DNA from: a virus
Length of the DNA: 50,001 nucleotides
Direction: 5' to 3' (one strand)
Virus record (IMG/VR): IMGVR_UViG_3300036845_000765
Location: 1-50,001 of that record
Position 1 is the first letter of the stretch, and each line of letters starts with the position of its first letter. Both the position numbers and the translations under genes were made by a program. Under the pieces are notes generated by a model, which ran no database searches, was not told where the DNA came from, and was given only the letters and a program-made list of their open reading frames with translations. Of the stretch, positions 364 through 13,554 are shown one piece after another.

Positions 364-3300
364 GTGACACTGACTATTCCGTCAACGACTTCATCGCCGA
401 TAACCAGCGTATGGCGAAGATGTTGACCTATGGTGCGATGGATGAAGACCCAGAGCAGGCCACCCGGGCGATCGAGCTTGGTGACTCCTCAGGGGTCCCG
501 GCGTCGGCGATCTATGGCAACGTCGACTCCTTCGAAAAGAAATACAAAGCCGCCCTCCAGTCCGATCTCATCCAACACAATCCACACCTCGCCAACTATC
601 TGGTCGGCGACCCAATGGCTGCGCGGGTGTCCAATGATGACTTGGGCAACCTGGACGAACTAACTCAACAGGTCAACAAAGGCACTGGCAAGTCCAGGCT
701 TCGCCAATGGTTGGATTCGACTTCCGTTTCCCAAACTGTATCCAAGTCCTTCATGGAAGGGTTTGGTGATGAGCCGGTCAGCCCAACTGGGTATCAGGAA
801 TTCTATCAAGGCTATTCTCGGCCCAACGATGTTGAATGGGCCTTGTCCCATCCAGCGCTGAGCTCAGTCCTCTCCCCGATCGGCCGAGCCGAGGGCCTTG
901 GCGAGATCGGGGTTGAAGCGCTCTCCCGAACCACCAACGGGTTGATCAACCTGGGCCACGATGCACTCAGCGCCATGTTCGGCAAAGGCTTCGCGGATGA
1001 GATGGCTGGGGAGGCACAGTATGCTATCACCCGTGGGGACATCGCGACCCCTGGGTTTGGTGGTGGCGCCAAAGGGCCCTTGGGCATAATCGAACAAAAC
1101 CAGCATTTGGTCAAAACCATATCCGATGTCTCCCATGCCTTGGACATTGCTGAACCTTGGTCCCGCATTGGCGAGGATCCACCGGTTGGCCTTCATCCGC
1201 TCATCGACAAAGCCAAGGAACTCCAAGCTAAGGAAGACGCGGATTGGATCGACAAGTCGCTGTCGGCCGCTGCCAAGTCCGCGACTAGGGAGCGTAGTCC
1301 AGAGCTATTTGCCCAGTTCCTCCGGGGCCAGGTAGGCAACCGGGAGATCGGGATCGACCCAGAGGCGATTGCTAAGCTGTACGGAGACAAACCTCCTGCT
1401 CCTGACGACAACATCCTTGGCTGGATACCTGGGTTGGCTGAGAGCCTTGAGGCTGCCAAAGCCACCGGCGCGGATGTCACAGTCCCGCTAGCTGACTACC
1501 TAGCCAAGGTTGATCCGGACATCGCCAAGGAACTCCACGACTTCATTCGGGTTCGGGACAAAGGGGTCACGATCGACGAGGCCAAGATCGAGGCCGAGCC
1601 GAAAACGGCCATTCCCGACCCAGTCGCCTCGATCCGTGCCTCGGCTGGGCTGGAGCCGATCTACGCAGCAGCTGGGGATCGGAAGGTCACACTATCCCGC
1701 AAGGACTACGTTGAGGAAAATGCCCGTGAGTTGGCGCAAGATACCGGTCGTGATTATGACCAGATGTCACCGGAAGACCAAGCTGAAATACGCCGAGATG
1801 CCAACCGAGGCTCCTACAACCTTGACATGCTCGATGAAACTGGAAAGCAGATCGGTTCAATCAAGCTCTCTGAACAGAAAGGGGGCAAGCAACTCTACAT
1901 ACAAATGATCCGCGCTGGTGGTACAGCCTCCATGTACGATCCGAATTTCCTTGGGCCGGCGTTGATCCGTGATCTCAAGCGCCAGCTCAAGTCTATGTTC
2001 CCCAATGCCGAGACCCTAACTGGCTATCGCGTTACCGGGGCTAGAGAAAAGGCTGGTGAGCAGGCATGGATGGCCAAGTCAGCTCTGTCAGTGGTCAAGC
2101 TTGATCTAGGTGAAGATCCCCAAGGGTTTAGGGATCTCCTAAGCCCCTACTGGACCCAAATCGGTCCTGAGTCCTTCGCCTACACCCGTCCAGAATGGTC
2201 CCCTCGCGAAACCCAAATCGCCAACGCGGTGGCACAGGAGGCGGAACGGTTGGCACCGGGGATTGACGTCCAAACCGTTCACAAACTCCTGTTCGAAGCT
2301 GCCGGGAATGGTGTTCGGGGACTATTCAATACCCAAACCAAACAGATGTTCATCTCCCTTGAATCCAAAGCTGGGCAGGTGGGGATTGTCAGACATGAGG
2401 TTGTTCACTGGCTTCGCAGTTCTGGGTTGTTCTCGGAGGGTGAATGGTTGACCTTGGCCAGGGCAGCGCATGACCAGAATTGGATTGAACGGTATAATAT
2501 CTCCGCGCGATACAAGAACTTCGACCCAGAAGCCCAGCTTGAAGAAGCCATCGCGGAAGGGTATCGGCATTGGGCTATGGGAGAGGGTGTAACCAAAGAC
2601 ACCGGGGTATTCCAGAAGATCAAGGATTTCTTCGAAGGGATCTATCGGCAGGTTAAGCAAGTCCTTGGCAAAGACTTCACCTGGGAGGAGCTGTTCAAGG
2701 AGATCGATGCTGGCAGGGTCGGACGGCGCGAAGGGGAGGATGAAGGCCTGGGCCAGCAGGTTTTGGCGAGCTCAGACTTAGCCAATGACATAGCAGGGCC
2801 CGAATCATTTCAGTCACCCCGACACGCTAAGATTAGACTCGATCAATTACTACGAGACAAAGCCCAGTCAAAGAAGCTGGGGGATGATGTGGAATCTACG
2901 GACTATATGCACTATAACGTGGCAATTAGAAGGCTTAGAGAGTATTTAAAGCAGAGTAGGGACGGTGGTTCAGGGCGGGTTTTGGCATCGGCTGGGGAAG
3001 GTGAAAAGCCATCTCGTGGACCAATGGCTCGGGAGGTTGCTCCCCAGCACCTTCCCTGGTATGACAAGGGCTTCCGCGGAGAGCCTCGTGGCGGCAACGA
3101 AGCTGAGCAAGCTGCTTGGGACCGCGGGAAGTTGGATGCGAGCAATGCTGAGCGTCAGGCTTTGGCCGGGCCCAGCAAGCCTGTTGAACAGCCAAGTCCT
3201 GGGCCCGCAGCTGAGCAGCCAACGGCCAAGTCTGGTGAAGCTGGCGAGGAAGAACCCTTCGGCCTATACTCCCGGGGCAAAGCTCTCGGCGTGACCGACG

Positions 3301-8908: not shown

Positions 8909-9308
8909 CCAAGTCTTTGATCCGGCTATCGCGCTGGTTGTGTTTAGGGTAGCGAGTTTCTTCTGCATGACCCTATTGGTCTACGTGGCCCAGCAAACCG
9001 AGTTCGACCCGGTGAACTCGTGTGATCCACGGTGGCTGAGATGGGTTCGTAGGGGGTTGTTCTACATCGCGGCGCTGGCATCGGGGGCGCAGGCGTTGGT
9101 GCCGAGTATTTGGACTTTGGTTGTTCAACTGGTCGCTGCCGACTTCATGCTCTTGATCAACGCGGTGTCCCTCCATCTCCGCGCTCCCAGAGATCCGGGT
9201 AGCCATGCCCGATCCTCGCGACAGCCCAATGCTAATCCTCCCCACCGTCCATCCTTGGCTTCGCAGCCCGCCACATTCGCTGACCGGTCAGATAGTTCCC
9301 AGCGGTAG
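8901..9308 (+). CDS. small multi-helix membrane protein, last gene of the plus-strand arm
   Basis: A 135-residue protein with three likely membrane helices (about residues 6-25, 45-65 and 70-93), then a polar, Pro/Ser-rich tail. It could be a second holin or antiholin. The start overlaps the previous gene by 8 bp (ATGATTGA). Its last 77 bases overlap, in opposite orientation, the end of the minus-strand helicase gene, so the two arms of the phage meet inside coding sequence without a spacer. Confidence 0.7.
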   Translation: MIDQVFDPAIALVVFRVASFFCMTLLVYVAQQTEFDPVNSCDPRWLRWVRRGLFYIAALASGAQALVPSIWTLVVQLVAADFMLLINAVSLHLRAPRDPGSHARSSRQPNANPPHRPSLASQPATFADRSDSSQR

Positions 9309-10491
9309 TTGGGACTAGCATTCCCGCGTTTTCCATGTTTTTGAGAAGCCGGTCCAGGGAATGGGCGGGGACGAGGTCCTTCGCGAACATGATGATCTTG
9401 CCTTCGCGAATGGGTTTGCCGAAGGTTAGGACGTAGTGGTAGATTTCGTCCATGGCTCGGGCATCCGCGTTGCCGGCACCAGCCTTAAATATATCCGGCA
9501 TGGTTTGCTCGGCTTCGAGAAGCCAGCCTAGCGCTCGGTTGAAGTCGTCAACGGTGAGCAGAAGTACATCCGATCTTTCGATGGCCGACACCATGGCCAG
9601 TTTGTACAGGTGGACCCGTCTCCGAGTAGCGTAATGGATGAGCTTGGGATGGGTTGGCACATCAGGCTCCCCAAGTGATCTCCAATTGGTGATTGCATCA
9701 CGAAACTTCGTTGTGACCTCGAATTGGCCCACCAGCCCAGAGATACACAGCAAATCGTGTACAAGATCAGGGCTGAGGTCAGTGTTATGTGTTTCGCTGA
9801 AATCATCGCCAATGGTCCTTTCATCGCTGAAGACGAAGATGATCCGGGAACAGAATCCCTGGTCCCAGGCGGATGGGGGGAGGTAGTCCATTAATATACT
9901 TGGTTGGGCACCGACGATCATGTTGAGCTGGGGGCGTTTTATTTTGATATTGATCTGCCCAGTGCGCCGGGTTTGTCCGTAGGGTTCACAGAGGTGGCAG
10001 TGATTGATAAACCCCATGGCTTCTTCGCTGTACTTATGCATAAACGCGGTTAGCTCGTCCGCGGTTATGTACATTGTGTTGTATTCGATTTTCCCCTCGG
10101 GCATGTGGAGCATGGAACGCTTGGATTTGTCGAGGTCGTCAATCATTGACGAGGCTGACATTGAGGTTGGCGCGGGGAGGGGTTCTGGGATTTGCATGTA
10201 GTAGCGTTTGGCCCTGGAGATTGTTCGGGTTTTGCCGACACCTGGGTGGGCAACTAGTCCACAATAGATATTCGGATACAACCGGTCCCCCTGGCTGATC
10301 ATCCAGACCTTTTGCTCCACCACCGCGGCGACTACCGAGATCCCAGCCCAGAGACGGAAGATGTATGGGGATTCTAGCTGGGAGGTGCTATCTACGAATG
10401 ATTCGATCCAGGATTGACACTTCCGGAGTGCGTGACCGTTGGTCGTGGCCGGTGTAGTCGCGGAGTCCATCGGGGTTATCGGCACTTGCAT
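9232..10491 (-). CDS. DUF3987-like / replicative helicase-type ATPase
   Basis: A 419-residue P-loop ATPase. Walker A is AHPGVGKTRT (about 81-90) and a Walker B-like YITADEL lies at about 141-147. The YPN(I)YxxLV segment before the P-loop and the general layout recall DUF3987 proteins, which stand in for the replicative helicase in many phages. A winged-helix-like C-terminus follows (about 355-410). It lies directly after the DNA polymerase and overlaps it by about 100 bp; a later in-frame ATG at 10470 would only slightly reduce that overlap. It is the last gene of the minus-strand operon. Confidence 0.78.
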   Translation of the reverse strand: MQVPITPMDSATTPATTNGHALRKCQSWIESFVDSTSQLESPYIFRLWAGISVVAAVVEQKVWMISQGDRLYPNIYCGLVAHPGVGKTRTISRAKRYYMQIPEPLPAPTSMSASSMIDDLDKSKRSMLHMPEGKIEYNTMYITADELTAFMHKYSEEAMGFINHCHLCEPYGQTRRTGQINIKIKRPQLNMIVGAQPSILMDYLPPSAWDQGFCSRIIFVFSDERTIGDDFSETHNTDLSPDLVHDLLCISGLVGQFEVTTKFRDAITNWRSLGEPDVPTHPKLIHYATRRRVHLYKLAMVSAIERSDVLLLTVDDFNRALGWLLEAEQTMPDIFKAGAGNADARAMDEIYHYVLTFGKPIREGKIIMFAKDLVPAHSLDRLLKNMENAGMLVPTTAGNYLTGQRMWRAAKPRMDGGED

Positions 10492-11884
10492 CGCCTTTGT
10501 TCCAGCCAGTTTTGCAATCGTAGGGGATGGTCATGGTTCGGCCGTGCTGGAGAGGGATGGTCTCCGGCAAGGCCGCGGCGAGGATGGGGACAACGGTGTC
10601 TTCGGCCTCCTCCGGGTACATGAATGTCAACGCGTCGTGGTCTTGGAACATAACGACATATGGTGCCCGCCGACCCATCCACACTCTGAGCATCGCGCGG
10701 TTCACGATGTCTGCGAGACTTCCCTGGGGATCAAAAGCAATAGCTCCCCTGAGCGTCTCTGGATCTGAACGCCGGCCAAAGAACCATCGTTTTCTTCCAG
10801 CAAATGATACAAGCTTACCCGATCTTCGGAGTTCATTGTCAACGTGAATGTGCCATCTTGTATGTCCCGGAAATGCGCCAAAATACTTTGGCTGGAATCC
10901 GGCAACGATCCGAACTGGGAGCTTGGTTTGCTCAGCGAGCTCTTCTGGCTGGCCGAGGTAGTTGGATCCGTGACCAAGTTTCTTGCACATGAATCGGTAT
11001 GTATAATGACGATAGAAGGGTTGTTCCGCGATATGCTTATCTCTGACCAATTCTCCCGTCCACGGAAGACTTGGCCAGCACATTCGAGCAACTGCTGTAT
11101 GCACGTCTCCAGATTCAACTGCATCTAGGTATCTCCCATCTTTGAAAAGGTTCCACTCAATGGCTCCGACGATATAGGACTCCCCAGACTTCGCGTCGAA
11201 CTTGGCGAATTTGCATCCTGGGTCAGCAACGAATACACTTCTAAGGCTCTCCTCGATGTTCTGAAAGTTTCCGCCAGTGCCAAATTCAGAGAAGCTAGAA
11301 CTAAAACGGCCAGTGTTAGTTCCGGCGATGTTGTAGGATGTTCGCATTCTTCCGTCATGGTCTACTCCCATTTGGAGGGCATCGATTTTCTTGGAGATTT
11401 CGCGTAGGGCAATGATGTGAGCTACAATCGGCTTGGCGACGGTGTAGGCACGGAGCTTCTCCAGGGCTTCGCGATCACAGGTGGGCCGGCCTTGGCGGCG
11501 GATGGTGGGGATTTGGAGATGGTTGTAGAAGAGGTTCATTACATCTGGATTGGAGCGCCAACTGAACGTGGGCATCCCGACACCGTCGAGGACGATTCGG
11601 TTTAGCTGGCGTTCGAGATAGTCGATTTTGTCGTAGAAGTCCGCGACTACCTCGTTACTCCGGCGTTTATCGACTAGCGTTCCGCGAAGTCGCATTTCTA
11701 GGACTGGGCCTTGGAGGGCCCGGCTAAATGCGTAGGTCGCGGAGGTGAGAGGGTCGAGGTTCGGGAGGATTTCTTCCAGGACTTCGAGGGTGACGACGCA
11801 GTCCAGTCCGTTGTAGATTTGGTCCCGAAGCCATTGGTTGCCGATATCATTTGGATTGGTGGTTTCTGTGTGGATGATTTTCAT
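10388..11884 (-). CDS. family A DNA polymerase, polymerase half carrying the ExoIII motif
   Basis: This 498-residue protein is the polymerase half of a PolA-type replicase. Seen: TGR at 191-193; motif A D230-x4-E235 (the usual Arg after E is Ser/Tyr here); motif B R297-x3-K301-x3-H305-x3-Y309; motif C H416-D417. H305 falls where E. coli Pol I has Phe762 and T7 Tyr526, the residue that tunes sugar discrimination. Residues 24-28 (YNGLD) match the ExoIII motif of the 3'-5' exonuclease, whose ExoI and ExoII motifs are on the separate protein at 12107-13207. The start ATG 11884 overlaps the stop of the small ORF between them (ATGA). Confidence 0.9.
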   Translation of the reverse strand: MKIIHTETTNPNDIGNQWLRDQIYNGLDCVVTLEVLEEILPNLDPLTSATYAFSRALQGPVLEMRLRGTLVDKRRSNEVVADFYDKIDYLERQLNRIVLDGVGMPTFSWRSNPDVMNLFYNHLQIPTIRRQGRPTCDREALEKLRAYTVAKPIVAHIIALREISKKIDALQMGVDHDGRMRTSYNIAGTNTGRFSSSFSEFGTGGNFQNIEESLRSVFVADPGCKFAKFDAKSGESYIVGAIEWNLFKDGRYLDAVESGDVHTAVARMCWPSLPWTGELVRDKHIAEQPFYRHYTYRFMCKKLGHGSNYLGQPEELAEQTKLPVRIVAGFQPKYFGAFPGHTRWHIHVDNELRRSGKLVSFAGRKRWFFGRRSDPETLRGAIAFDPQGSLADIVNRAMLRVWMGRRAPYVVMFQDHDALTFMYPEEAEDTVVPILAAALPETIPLQHGRTMTIPYDCKTGWNKGDASADNPDGLRDYTGHDQRSRTPEVSILDRIIRR

Positions 11885-12105
11885 TGGTGGTTGATTGACC
11901 AATGAGCGACACATGCAAGCTCAGCGTCAGCTCTTGTGTTGTATTCTCCAATGTCATGGCGCTTTGTTGCATTGGGATACTCTTTTGAGCTTACATTCCA
12001 TTTCAGTGTTTGTTCGTCGTAGGAAATGACATACTGGAAAGGTTTGCGCACAGCCCCCCAGCATTTCATATCCGGGAATGGGGAAGGTAGGCTTATCCAT
12101 TGCAT
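11881..12105 (-). CDS. small ORF lodged between the exonuclease and polymerase genes
   Basis: A 74-residue protein (77 if ATG 12114 is used) that I do not recognise. It contains no HNH, GIY-YIG or LAGLIDADG motif. It fills the gap between the exonuclease-bearing and polymerase-bearing halves: its start follows the TAA of the upstream gene by one base, and its stop overlaps the ATG of the polymerase. An AAAAGGG site is well spaced for ATG 12105. Its frame differs from that of the two flanking genes, which share a frame with each other. Confidence 0.6.
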   Translation of the reverse strand: MQWISLPSPFPDMKCWGAVRKPFQYVISYDEQTLKWNVSSKEYPNATKRHDIGEYNTRADAELACVAHWSINHQ

Positions 12106-12106
12106 G

Positions 12107-13207
12107 TTATTCATCCCTTTTGATTGTATCCGATTTCTTCCGTTCGCTCTTCCATGGACCGTGGTTGGTATAGATACTCCCCAGGTATCCCAGGCTCTTC
12201 AAGCTTTCCGGTTGGAGCGCGTGGTGGAGGAGCATGGTGTCGTGGACTGCTCCAAGTACACGGATCCCATATGACCGGAGGAGGAAGGCAATGTCGTAGA
12301 GTCCGTTTTGGAAGACTTTGAGGACTGCTGGATCCTCAAGCACCGAACGTATAAGGCTCCAACATTGTCGTTCAAGGTCTTTAGTAGGCCAATAGTTTCC
12401 CGAGTCTGCACGTGAGTCATGGATTGGAATAACAATCGCAAGGTCTCGTCTGGGAGCGAAACCCAGGCAGGTAATCTGCGTCCCGCTTGTTTCAATGTCG
12501 ACCGAAACAAGGCGGCCTGGAATAATGTGTTGCTGGAAGAAGGTTTGGATGTCTTCGATGGTCGGTTCGATCCAGATTTCGACTTTGGGGCGGGAGACAT
12601 TCGGGGTTTCCTTTTCGGTGAGGATCTTGCTCAGGTCCGCGACTACTGTTGGTCGGAGTTGCCATTGTCGGTTGACCGCGGAAGGGTGGTAAGTAAGCAG
12701 GCATTTATAGTCAGCAACACAGTGAGAACTACTAGCAGTGGTGCCACGAAGCTTAGTAACGCCGGTGTTACCCAGGAGAGCCCAAATAGCAGCGTTGCCA
12801 AGGCACACAATGAGATTTGGATCCACATGAAGAATTTCATCACCAAGCCGTATGATTTCCGACTCATAACCCATCTGTGCATATCCCGCTTTGGTAAGTT
12901 TTCCATATCCTGGGATTCCTGTTGCTTTGGGCCCGCAGAGTTCGCTGAGATCATTCCCAGGTGGGCGAAGGTTGAAGACGTTGGTTCGATAGAGTTCTGG
13001 GTGGGCGGTCCAGATGCGGTCGAGGGGCCAAGGGTCTCGGGTGGCCCAGAAGGATTGGATGTTGGCGTGGTCGGCTGGGGTGAAGTCGATCACCCCAGCG
13101 TCGTTGAGCATACGGAGGAGTTCACAGCCGGTGGTGCCGCAGAAGCCGCGTTTGATCTTGGCTTCGTTTTCTCCCCAACACTCACCTATAAGGACTATCG
13201 GTTTCAC
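12107..13207 (-). CDS. uracil-DNA glycosylase domain fused to DnaQ-like 3'-5' exonuclease (ExoI and ExoII only)
   Basis: A 366-residue two-domain protein. Residues 1-200 look like a family 4/5-type uracil-DNA glycosylase: VLIGECWGENE near the start, YRTNVFNLRPPGN at 73-85, IVCLGNAA at 133-140 and LTYHPSAV at 171-178. Residues about 208-366 are the start of a PolA-type proofreading exonuclease: ExoI D237-x-E239 and ExoII N301-x3-D305. No ExoIII Tyr/Asp is present before the stop; it is on the polymerase gene. The GTG start at 13207 overlaps the previous stop (GTGA), better than the ORF-maximal start at 13372, which lies inside the upstream gene. Excising uracil next to the polymerase could couple repair to replication (inference). 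Confidence 0.82.
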   Translation of the reverse strand: MKPIVLIGECWGENEAKIKRGFCGTTGCELLRMLNDAGVIDFTPADHANIQSFWATRDPWPLDRIWTAHPELYRTNVFNLRPPGNDLSELCGPKATGIPGYGKLTKAGYAQMGYESEIIRLGDEILHVDPNLIVCLGNAAIWALLGNTGVTKLRGTTASSSHCVADYKCLLTYHPSAVNRQWQLRPTVVADLSKILTEKETPNVSRPKVEIWIEPTIEDIQTFFQQHIIPGRLVSVDIETSGTQITCLGFAPRRDLAIVIPIHDSRADSGNYWPTKDLERQCWSLIRSVLEDPAVLKVFQNGLYDIAFLLRSYGIRVLGAVHDTMLLHHALQPESLKSLGYLGSIYTNHGPWKSERKKSDTIKRDE

Positions 13208-13554
13208 TTGCAGAGATCTTCCACGAGCTTCCCATACCCAACCACGTCTTCCCAATGCTGGCGCTCCATGGACTTTCCGCTGAGGATCCTTGAGAACTTC
13301 AACGCGATCATGTCCATGGCTTCGCGTTCCACATCGGTCAACCGGTCCCAACCTGTGGATGCACGAAAGCATCGCTTGAGCATTTGGGAAACCAGGGCGT
13401 TCTCGGCGAAGTCGCCATGGGTGGATTGTCGGGTGGTTAGGAGGGGGTGGCGTTCTGGTTCTGTCACGTACGTAATACCTCCAGGGCGTAGTTCGGGAGA
13501 GTTGATCTCGGCTTCCATCGCGGACACATCAAACGCTTTCGGGTATTTGCTCAT
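13204..13554 (-). CDS. DUF6378-like protein
   Basis: A 116-residue protein with the features of a phage family usually listed as DUF6378: a THGDFxxNA segment near residues 45-52 and a long helix with EAMDMIALKFSRIL, then HWEDVVGY near the C-terminus. Acidic residues in the helices are reminiscent of MazG-like/all-alpha nucleotide hydrolases, but no activity is established. It sits at the head of the repair/replication genes, downstream of a probable terminator, and is coupled to the glycosylase-exonuclease gene. Confidence 0.72.
   Translation of the reverse strand: MSKYPKAFDVSAMEAEINSPELRPGGITYVTEPERHPLLTTRQSTHGDFAENALVSQMLKRCFRASTGWDRLTDVEREAMDMIALKFSRILSGKSMERQHWEDVVGYGKLVEDLCK

Follow-up and report, generated by a model that had tools for sequence, protein, structure and literature searches.

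Phage enzymes encoded in pieces, polymerases among them, are already known. In the T4-like Aeromonas phages 25 and 44RR, the replicative polymerase is carried by two genes, 43A and 43B, separated either by an intercistronic sequence or by a seg homing endonuclease gene, and the split products co-purify and are active as a polymerase (reviewed in PMC2988022). Similarly, nrdA of Aeromonas phage Aeh1, coding for an essential enzyme, is split through a functional region by mobE, the gene of a free-standing homing endonuclease, and the enzyme is active in trans (PMC2988022). In the OM43 phages MEP401 and MEP402, PolA is again divided into two ORFs with a small ORF of unknown function between them; most relatives are split too, and the authors suggest an intron (PMC10580990).

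The DNA analyzed here (the window) is a stretch of 50,001 nucleotides, positions 1 to 50,001 of the IMG/VR virus record IMGVR_UViG_3300036845_000765. It carries terminase, head-tail adaptor, major head and tail genes, and from its virion genes we read the virus as podovirus-like. A 2094-aa protein encoded at 360-6644 matches phrog_9880 (function unknown; E 7e-120) and is possibly a large internal virion protein. The genes around the split polymerase are as follows.

9232-10491, minus strand: downstream gene, DUF3987/PHROG primase-helicase-like, of the same replication operon (Pfam, PHROG)
10388-11884, minus strand: gene B, 498 aa, N-terminus MKIIHTE, with ExoIII (Y24, D28) and the thumb/palm/fingers of a family A DNA polymerase
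11881-12114 including the stop, minus strand: slot ORF, 77 aa, an orphan; variable cargo, no polymerase part
12107-12121, minus strand: last codons of gene A, aaaagggatgaataa, the C-terminus doubling as a Shine-Dalgarno (SD)-like stretch for the next cistron
12107-13207, minus strand: gene A, 366 aa, GTG start, TAA stop, C-terminal end ...TIKRDE, with a uracil-DNA glycosylase (UDG) domain and the N-terminal part of a DEDDy 3'-5' exonuclease (ExoI D237/E239, ExoII N301/D305, plus D323)
13204-13554, minus strand: DUF6378-like gene directly upstream of A, with a 4-nt overlap (Pfam, PHROG)

The first start listed for the primase-helicase-like gene overlaps gene B by 104 nt, and its true start is probably further inside. 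Gene A matches PF03167 (UDG, E 2.4e-9, above the curated cut-off) and PF01612 (DNA_pol_A_exo1, E 5e-8), family 4 UDG structures being the best PDB matches; by the PF03167 match it is classed as a putative, family 4-like member of the uracil-DNA glycosylase superfamily. Gene B matches PF00476 (E 3.9e-27), and by this match, its palm residues and its Klenow/T7 fold it is a family A DNA polymerase. Since consecutive stretches of PHROG 17 (phage DNA polymerase) are matched by A (556-783) and then by B (809-1232), they represent successive parts of a single family.

The preliminary description of this DNA had placed ExoI and ExoII on the glycosylase fusion and ExoIII at the start of the polymerase protein, with the break falling inside one catalytic domain, and the residue numbers and the place of the break both hold. 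The motifs of a DEDDy exonuclease (ExoI D-x-E, ExoII N-x3-D, ExoIII Y-x3-D) are all present, in two chains and not in one. Likewise, A and B do lie in one frame 222 bp apart, around a small ORF (74-77 residues in that description, 77 here) that shares 8 nt with A and 4 nt (ATGA) with B. Between the genes, their frame contains four stops, namely A's TAA and three TGA. We consider it likely, at a probability of about 0.82, that A and B are two translationally coupled subunits of one proofreading family A polymerase assembled in trans; their co-translation, physical association and proofreading activity are what we infer from sequence comparison and structural models. Among the outcomes proposed earlier, the meeting of the halves in trans is favored by an invariant active site, clade-wide conservation and a joint fold, and RNA splicing and loss of proofreading find no support.

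IMG/VR, the GTDB genome set and phage GenBank were searched with A, with B and with profiles of both; of the 184 distinct loci found to hold both halves, 181 are split and 3 are fused outgroups. The split loci are found on IMG/VR contigs, on three bacterial-MAG contigs (binned as Terriglobia, Phycisphaerae and Actinomycetes, the host assignment of such contigs being uncertain) and in the cultured Caulobacter phage Kuura; a DNA-level search of phage records gave no match. All 181 clade members are broken in one loop, between ExoII and ExoIII, and the split is found among relatives down to ~40% identity. A sequencing error, once considered as the source of the stop, is excluded by the identical break at 181 distinct loci. 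Kuura (OQ067476; PMC9959647) has the identical domain order and break, with two other small genes in its slot between A and B. In its annotation, only the polymerase half is labeled as a polymerase and A is a "hypothetical protein," and the word "split" is absent from the paper (PMC9959647); a clade-wide split explains how annotation, as in Kuura, fails to recognize the first half as belonging to a polymerase.

When two fused relatives, Mel-JY34 and MW202489, were used as queries, a sister group was found. In this group, Microcystis phage Mel-JY34 and its relatives, UDG-exo-pol is mostly a single gene; Mel-JY34 and the isolate ctMlz233 carry these three domains in an identical order in one gene, and the loop is continuous at the break point. 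The fused loop reads WKDEGKxWD...xxW-YN, whereas in the split clade A ends with ...WK....TIKRDE-stop and B begins, from a conserved start of its own, with M(K/R)II.T....YNGLD; this comparison makes the loop before the ExoIII helix the break site. Beyond the WK motif, A continues for 13 residues, and in B, 23 residues precede Y24 of ExoIII. A split intein was rejected because the ends of A and B leave no room for intein halves.

In a tree of A+B (FastTree, 144 rows), the difference between split and fused takes one change and the split loci are monophyletic with support 99; in a tree of B alone (IQ-TREE, 57 rows), it also takes one change, and they are monophyletic with support 100. Since the tree needs one origin, the split of this clade appears to have arisen once. 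Presence of an insert takes at least 19 changes among 100 split rows by parsimony on a quick tree, suggesting that inserts were lost and regained many times after fission. By the same quick-tree parsimony, the reconstructed root state of the split clade is insert present, so that fission may have come together with an insertion; all 27 insert-free rows are confined to one subclade of 58.

Breaks and insertions are also seen inside the fused clade. One contig only, L258 (IMGVR_UViG_3300038408_000101, about 3150-3300), has UDG-exo-pol split a second time, independently, in the loop where the large clade is broken: its A ends with ...WKAGG-TAA, followed by CCC-ATG as the start of B, with GGAGG just upstream. 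In the fused-clade relatives L303, L311, L315 and L320, the polymerase is broken at another recurrent point, after ...N(L/Q)QN(I/L)..G.. and before ...(L/V)PN(I/V/L)R.(M/V)(F/L).P (palm), with overlapping or gene-holding junctions; the loop is that of the low-confidence stretch 627-650 of the window model described below. Phage PolA thus seems subject to recurrent fission at flexible loops. The polymerase of L310 (3971-7318) has an in-frame insertion of ~310 aa (residues ~645-954) at KMFVHG/SNYGG, which begins CVTAGHEVLTPEGW, ends VTGN and looks from its sequence like an intein; no library match was obtained for the insertion itself, and the fused-clade polymerases of L306-L309 gave matches of a span similar to L310.

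Residues of both halves are strictly kept. In A, D237, E239, N301, D305 and D323 are invariant in 73/73 complete copies, and in B, Y24 and D28 are invariant in 72/72; among the palm residues of B, D230 is found in 72/72 and H416 and D417 in 71/72. The same exonuclease columns are also invariant in 37-row alignments, and the catalytic residues of both halves stay invariant across relatives down to ~50% identity. Were the exonuclease dispensable, conservation of its active site in both halves would not be expected, so the exonuclease appears to be retained. The invariant residues of A could instead be kept for a role of A complexed with something else. It is very unlikely that proofreading was lost and that A is a decaying UDG-exo remnant beside an exonuclease-free polymerase B: a split exonuclease fold would indeed be non-functional if its halves never met, but neither half has lost its invariant residues, and A is open and upstream of B in all 181 split loci. 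Distances of A and B correlate at 0.88, or 0.56 as a partial correlation given the primase gene; B and the primase gene correlate just as strongly (partial 0.55), and shared genome history accounts for some of the A-B correlation.

As A and B are in one frame in the window, the region could be folded read through, with the four stops as residues and an alignment of the A and B proteins of relatives. The AlphaFold2 model has a pTM of 0.81 and a mean pLDDT of 84.7; the regions under 50 are the artificial linker 359-436, which is disordered, and the polymerase loop 627-650, and the N-terminal strand of B stands at ~93. On Klenow 1kln, VIA-align aligned 554/595 residues (model 206-916, Z 27.6, rmsd 4.2), with a Z of 24.9 against T7 polymerase, and Foldseek ranked Klenow-type enzymes first. 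Both halves are thus predicted to fold into one Klenow-like exo+pol body, their closeness being partly imposed by the linker of the single read-through chain. Folded alone, A keeps the UDG and most of the exo domain, and its residues 321-350 have a pLDDT of 73/67/69 vs 91/81/88 with B, the alignment make-up differing between the runs. If the helices at 321-350 pack on B and ExoIII in the way modeled, a drop of confidence without B is as expected.

At 44 of the 181 loci, A and B meet with no insert, in contacts of the ATGA or TAATG stop/start type: 28 overlap by 4 nt (ATGA, GTGA type) and 10 by 1 nt. Translational coupling is the established reading of ATGA/GTGA-type stop/start overlaps. In 73% of the 181 loci, an SD-like core lies within the final 14 nt of A, compared with 19% at random positions of A; it is supplied by the codons of a conserved A C-terminus, KRD(E/A). 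These junction sequences suggest that A and B are translationally coupled. Three relatives have a gap of 3, and in L042 (contig IMGVR_UViG_3300036801_000108, locus 1933-1938), a TAG of A directly precedes the in-frame ATG of B, the genes abutting in one frame. The ATGA overlaps, the gaps of 3 and the single TAG of L042 would also suit a full-length A-B fusion produced by stop read-through or by programmed frameshifting at the overlap. We give this little chance, because four stops would have to be read through in the window, the junction stops (TAA, TAG, TGA) and the sequence upstream vary, and no slippery heptamer is shared among the junctions as judged by eye; in addition, many copies have the frame of B closed immediately upstream, and inserts of all lengths are tolerated.

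The earlier statement that the domain is divided by a small ORF is true of the window genome only, as other relatives have no ORF there or unrelated ones; the split predates the 77-aa ORF. The length of this ORF is above chance for its slot (p = 0.0024, 5000 dinucleotide shuffles); no relative of it turned up in IMG/VR, and it matches no Pfam or PHROG family. Even the nearest relative of the window, L084 (72% identical), has an unrelated 76-aa ORF in a slot of the same 222-bp length. Slots of at least 60 bp (n = 134) contain 166 ORFs, which single-linkage clustering groups into 92 families, including 71 singletons; a conserved function of the 77-aa ORF was rejected, given this diversity and its lack of relatives or family. 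In 112 slots tested, the longest ORF exceeds chance (p<=0.05) in 69%, the longest ORF fills a median 99% of the slot on the coding strand vs 39% on the other strand, and slot GC is below polymerase GC in 85%. Pfam matches of slot ORFs include the nucleases HNH_3, Endonuclease_7 and LAGLIDADG_3, and also GH25, an NrdR-type zinc ribbon, nucleoside deoxyribosyltransferase, YfbR-like nucleotidase and FkbM methyltransferase. The largest slot family has 24 copies (L196 5106-5624 and 23 further ORFs), its representative matching DUF7768.

Homing endonucleases are found in 21/134 slots and not in that of the window. Among 30 HNH_3 matches in 50 whole records, only 3 lie inside the A/B slot by coordinates that we mapped, and the slot was rejected as the homing-endonuclease site; a density estimate from slot-derived queries was biased and set aside. 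Inserts of at least 90 bp occur in the window clade at 61% of A|B, 62% of K|S, 38% of S|P, 36% of P|A and 7% of B|D boundaries, the tight contact of gene B with the downstream gene (B|D) being conserved. The A/B slot is thus not supported as a unique insertion hotspot, other operon boundaries showing similar traffic, and looks like an ordinary gene boundary and not like a special device. It is also improbable that the slot ORF acts as a third subunit or as a clamp joining the halves. It does lie exactly between them, and in 72 of the 134 slots the start of the first ORF and the end of the last are ~10 nt or less from A's stop and B's start; however, a partner of this kind would be missing at all insert-free loci, unrelated between the window and L084, drawn elsewhere from many unrelated families, and matched by inserts at K|S and P|A.

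Least credible of all is that a single full-length polymerase results because the 222-bp stretch splices itself out as an intron or is bypassed, even though A and B share a frame in the window, some slots hold homing endonuclease genes and group I introns are often carried by phage polymerase genes (phages cited in PMC10580990): 44 of the 181 relatives have nothing to splice, yet keep two genes with overlapping or abutting ends, Rfam finds no intron at the window junction (a sub-threshold leader match only) or at 11 loci with an insert, slot lengths are spread over all three frames with the slot nearly filled by an ORF, and B has its own conserved start (M-K/R-I-I). The shared frame of A and B is a coincidence of the 222-bp insert; the frames differ in ATGA copies.

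If A and B are subunits assembled in trans, an ancestral single-gene UDG-exo-pol would have undergone a single break, located between ExoII and ExoIII in a surface loop of the exonuclease fold, and this break would then have been fixed in a large phage clade. A would contribute the UDG and the ExoI/ExoII carboxylates, and B the ExoIII tyrosine/aspartate helix and the polymerase; coupled translation of a single mRNA would yield both, and docking would re-form the composite active site. Like other boundaries of the operon, the new one would take up and lose small genes unrelated to one another, homing endonucleases among them; the 77-aa ORF would be one such small gene. More tentatively, and with rather less confidence than doubt, we envisage a clade with an obligate two-subunit proofreading polymerase whose exonuclease site is built from two polypeptides, A also carrying UDG, with a module that is detachable if B works alone and a boundary that serves as a landing site. 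If this is true and B polymerizes without A, proofreading and uracil surveillance would form a detachable module separately dosed by the phage, and the boundary between subunits would receive mobile and orphan genes with the enzyme unbroken. The fused sister clade, the second split in L258 and the cultured Kuura make survival of a fission through an active site testable, together with separate regulation of the pieces and homing endonucleases as starters of fission.

Described split phage enzymes are mostly isolated cases, whereas here a break in a catalytic fold is fixed across at least 181 sampled loci. The nrdA of Aeh1 is a different enzyme, for which a single insertion is described (PMC2988022). 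In MEP401 and MEP402, the first ORF comprises the exo domain and the N-terminal part of pol, so that the break is in the pol domain, unlike in the window clade, and the accessible part of the report mentions no UDG (PMC10580990). No description of this clade-wide split was found in the open-access literature, such absence being weak evidence. The 43A/43B polymerase is of family B and split in few phages, while that of the window clade is of family A and split clade-wide, with a highly variable slot; what is new here is that the enzyme is PolA, that the break is inside the exonuclease fold, and that it is fixed across the clade.
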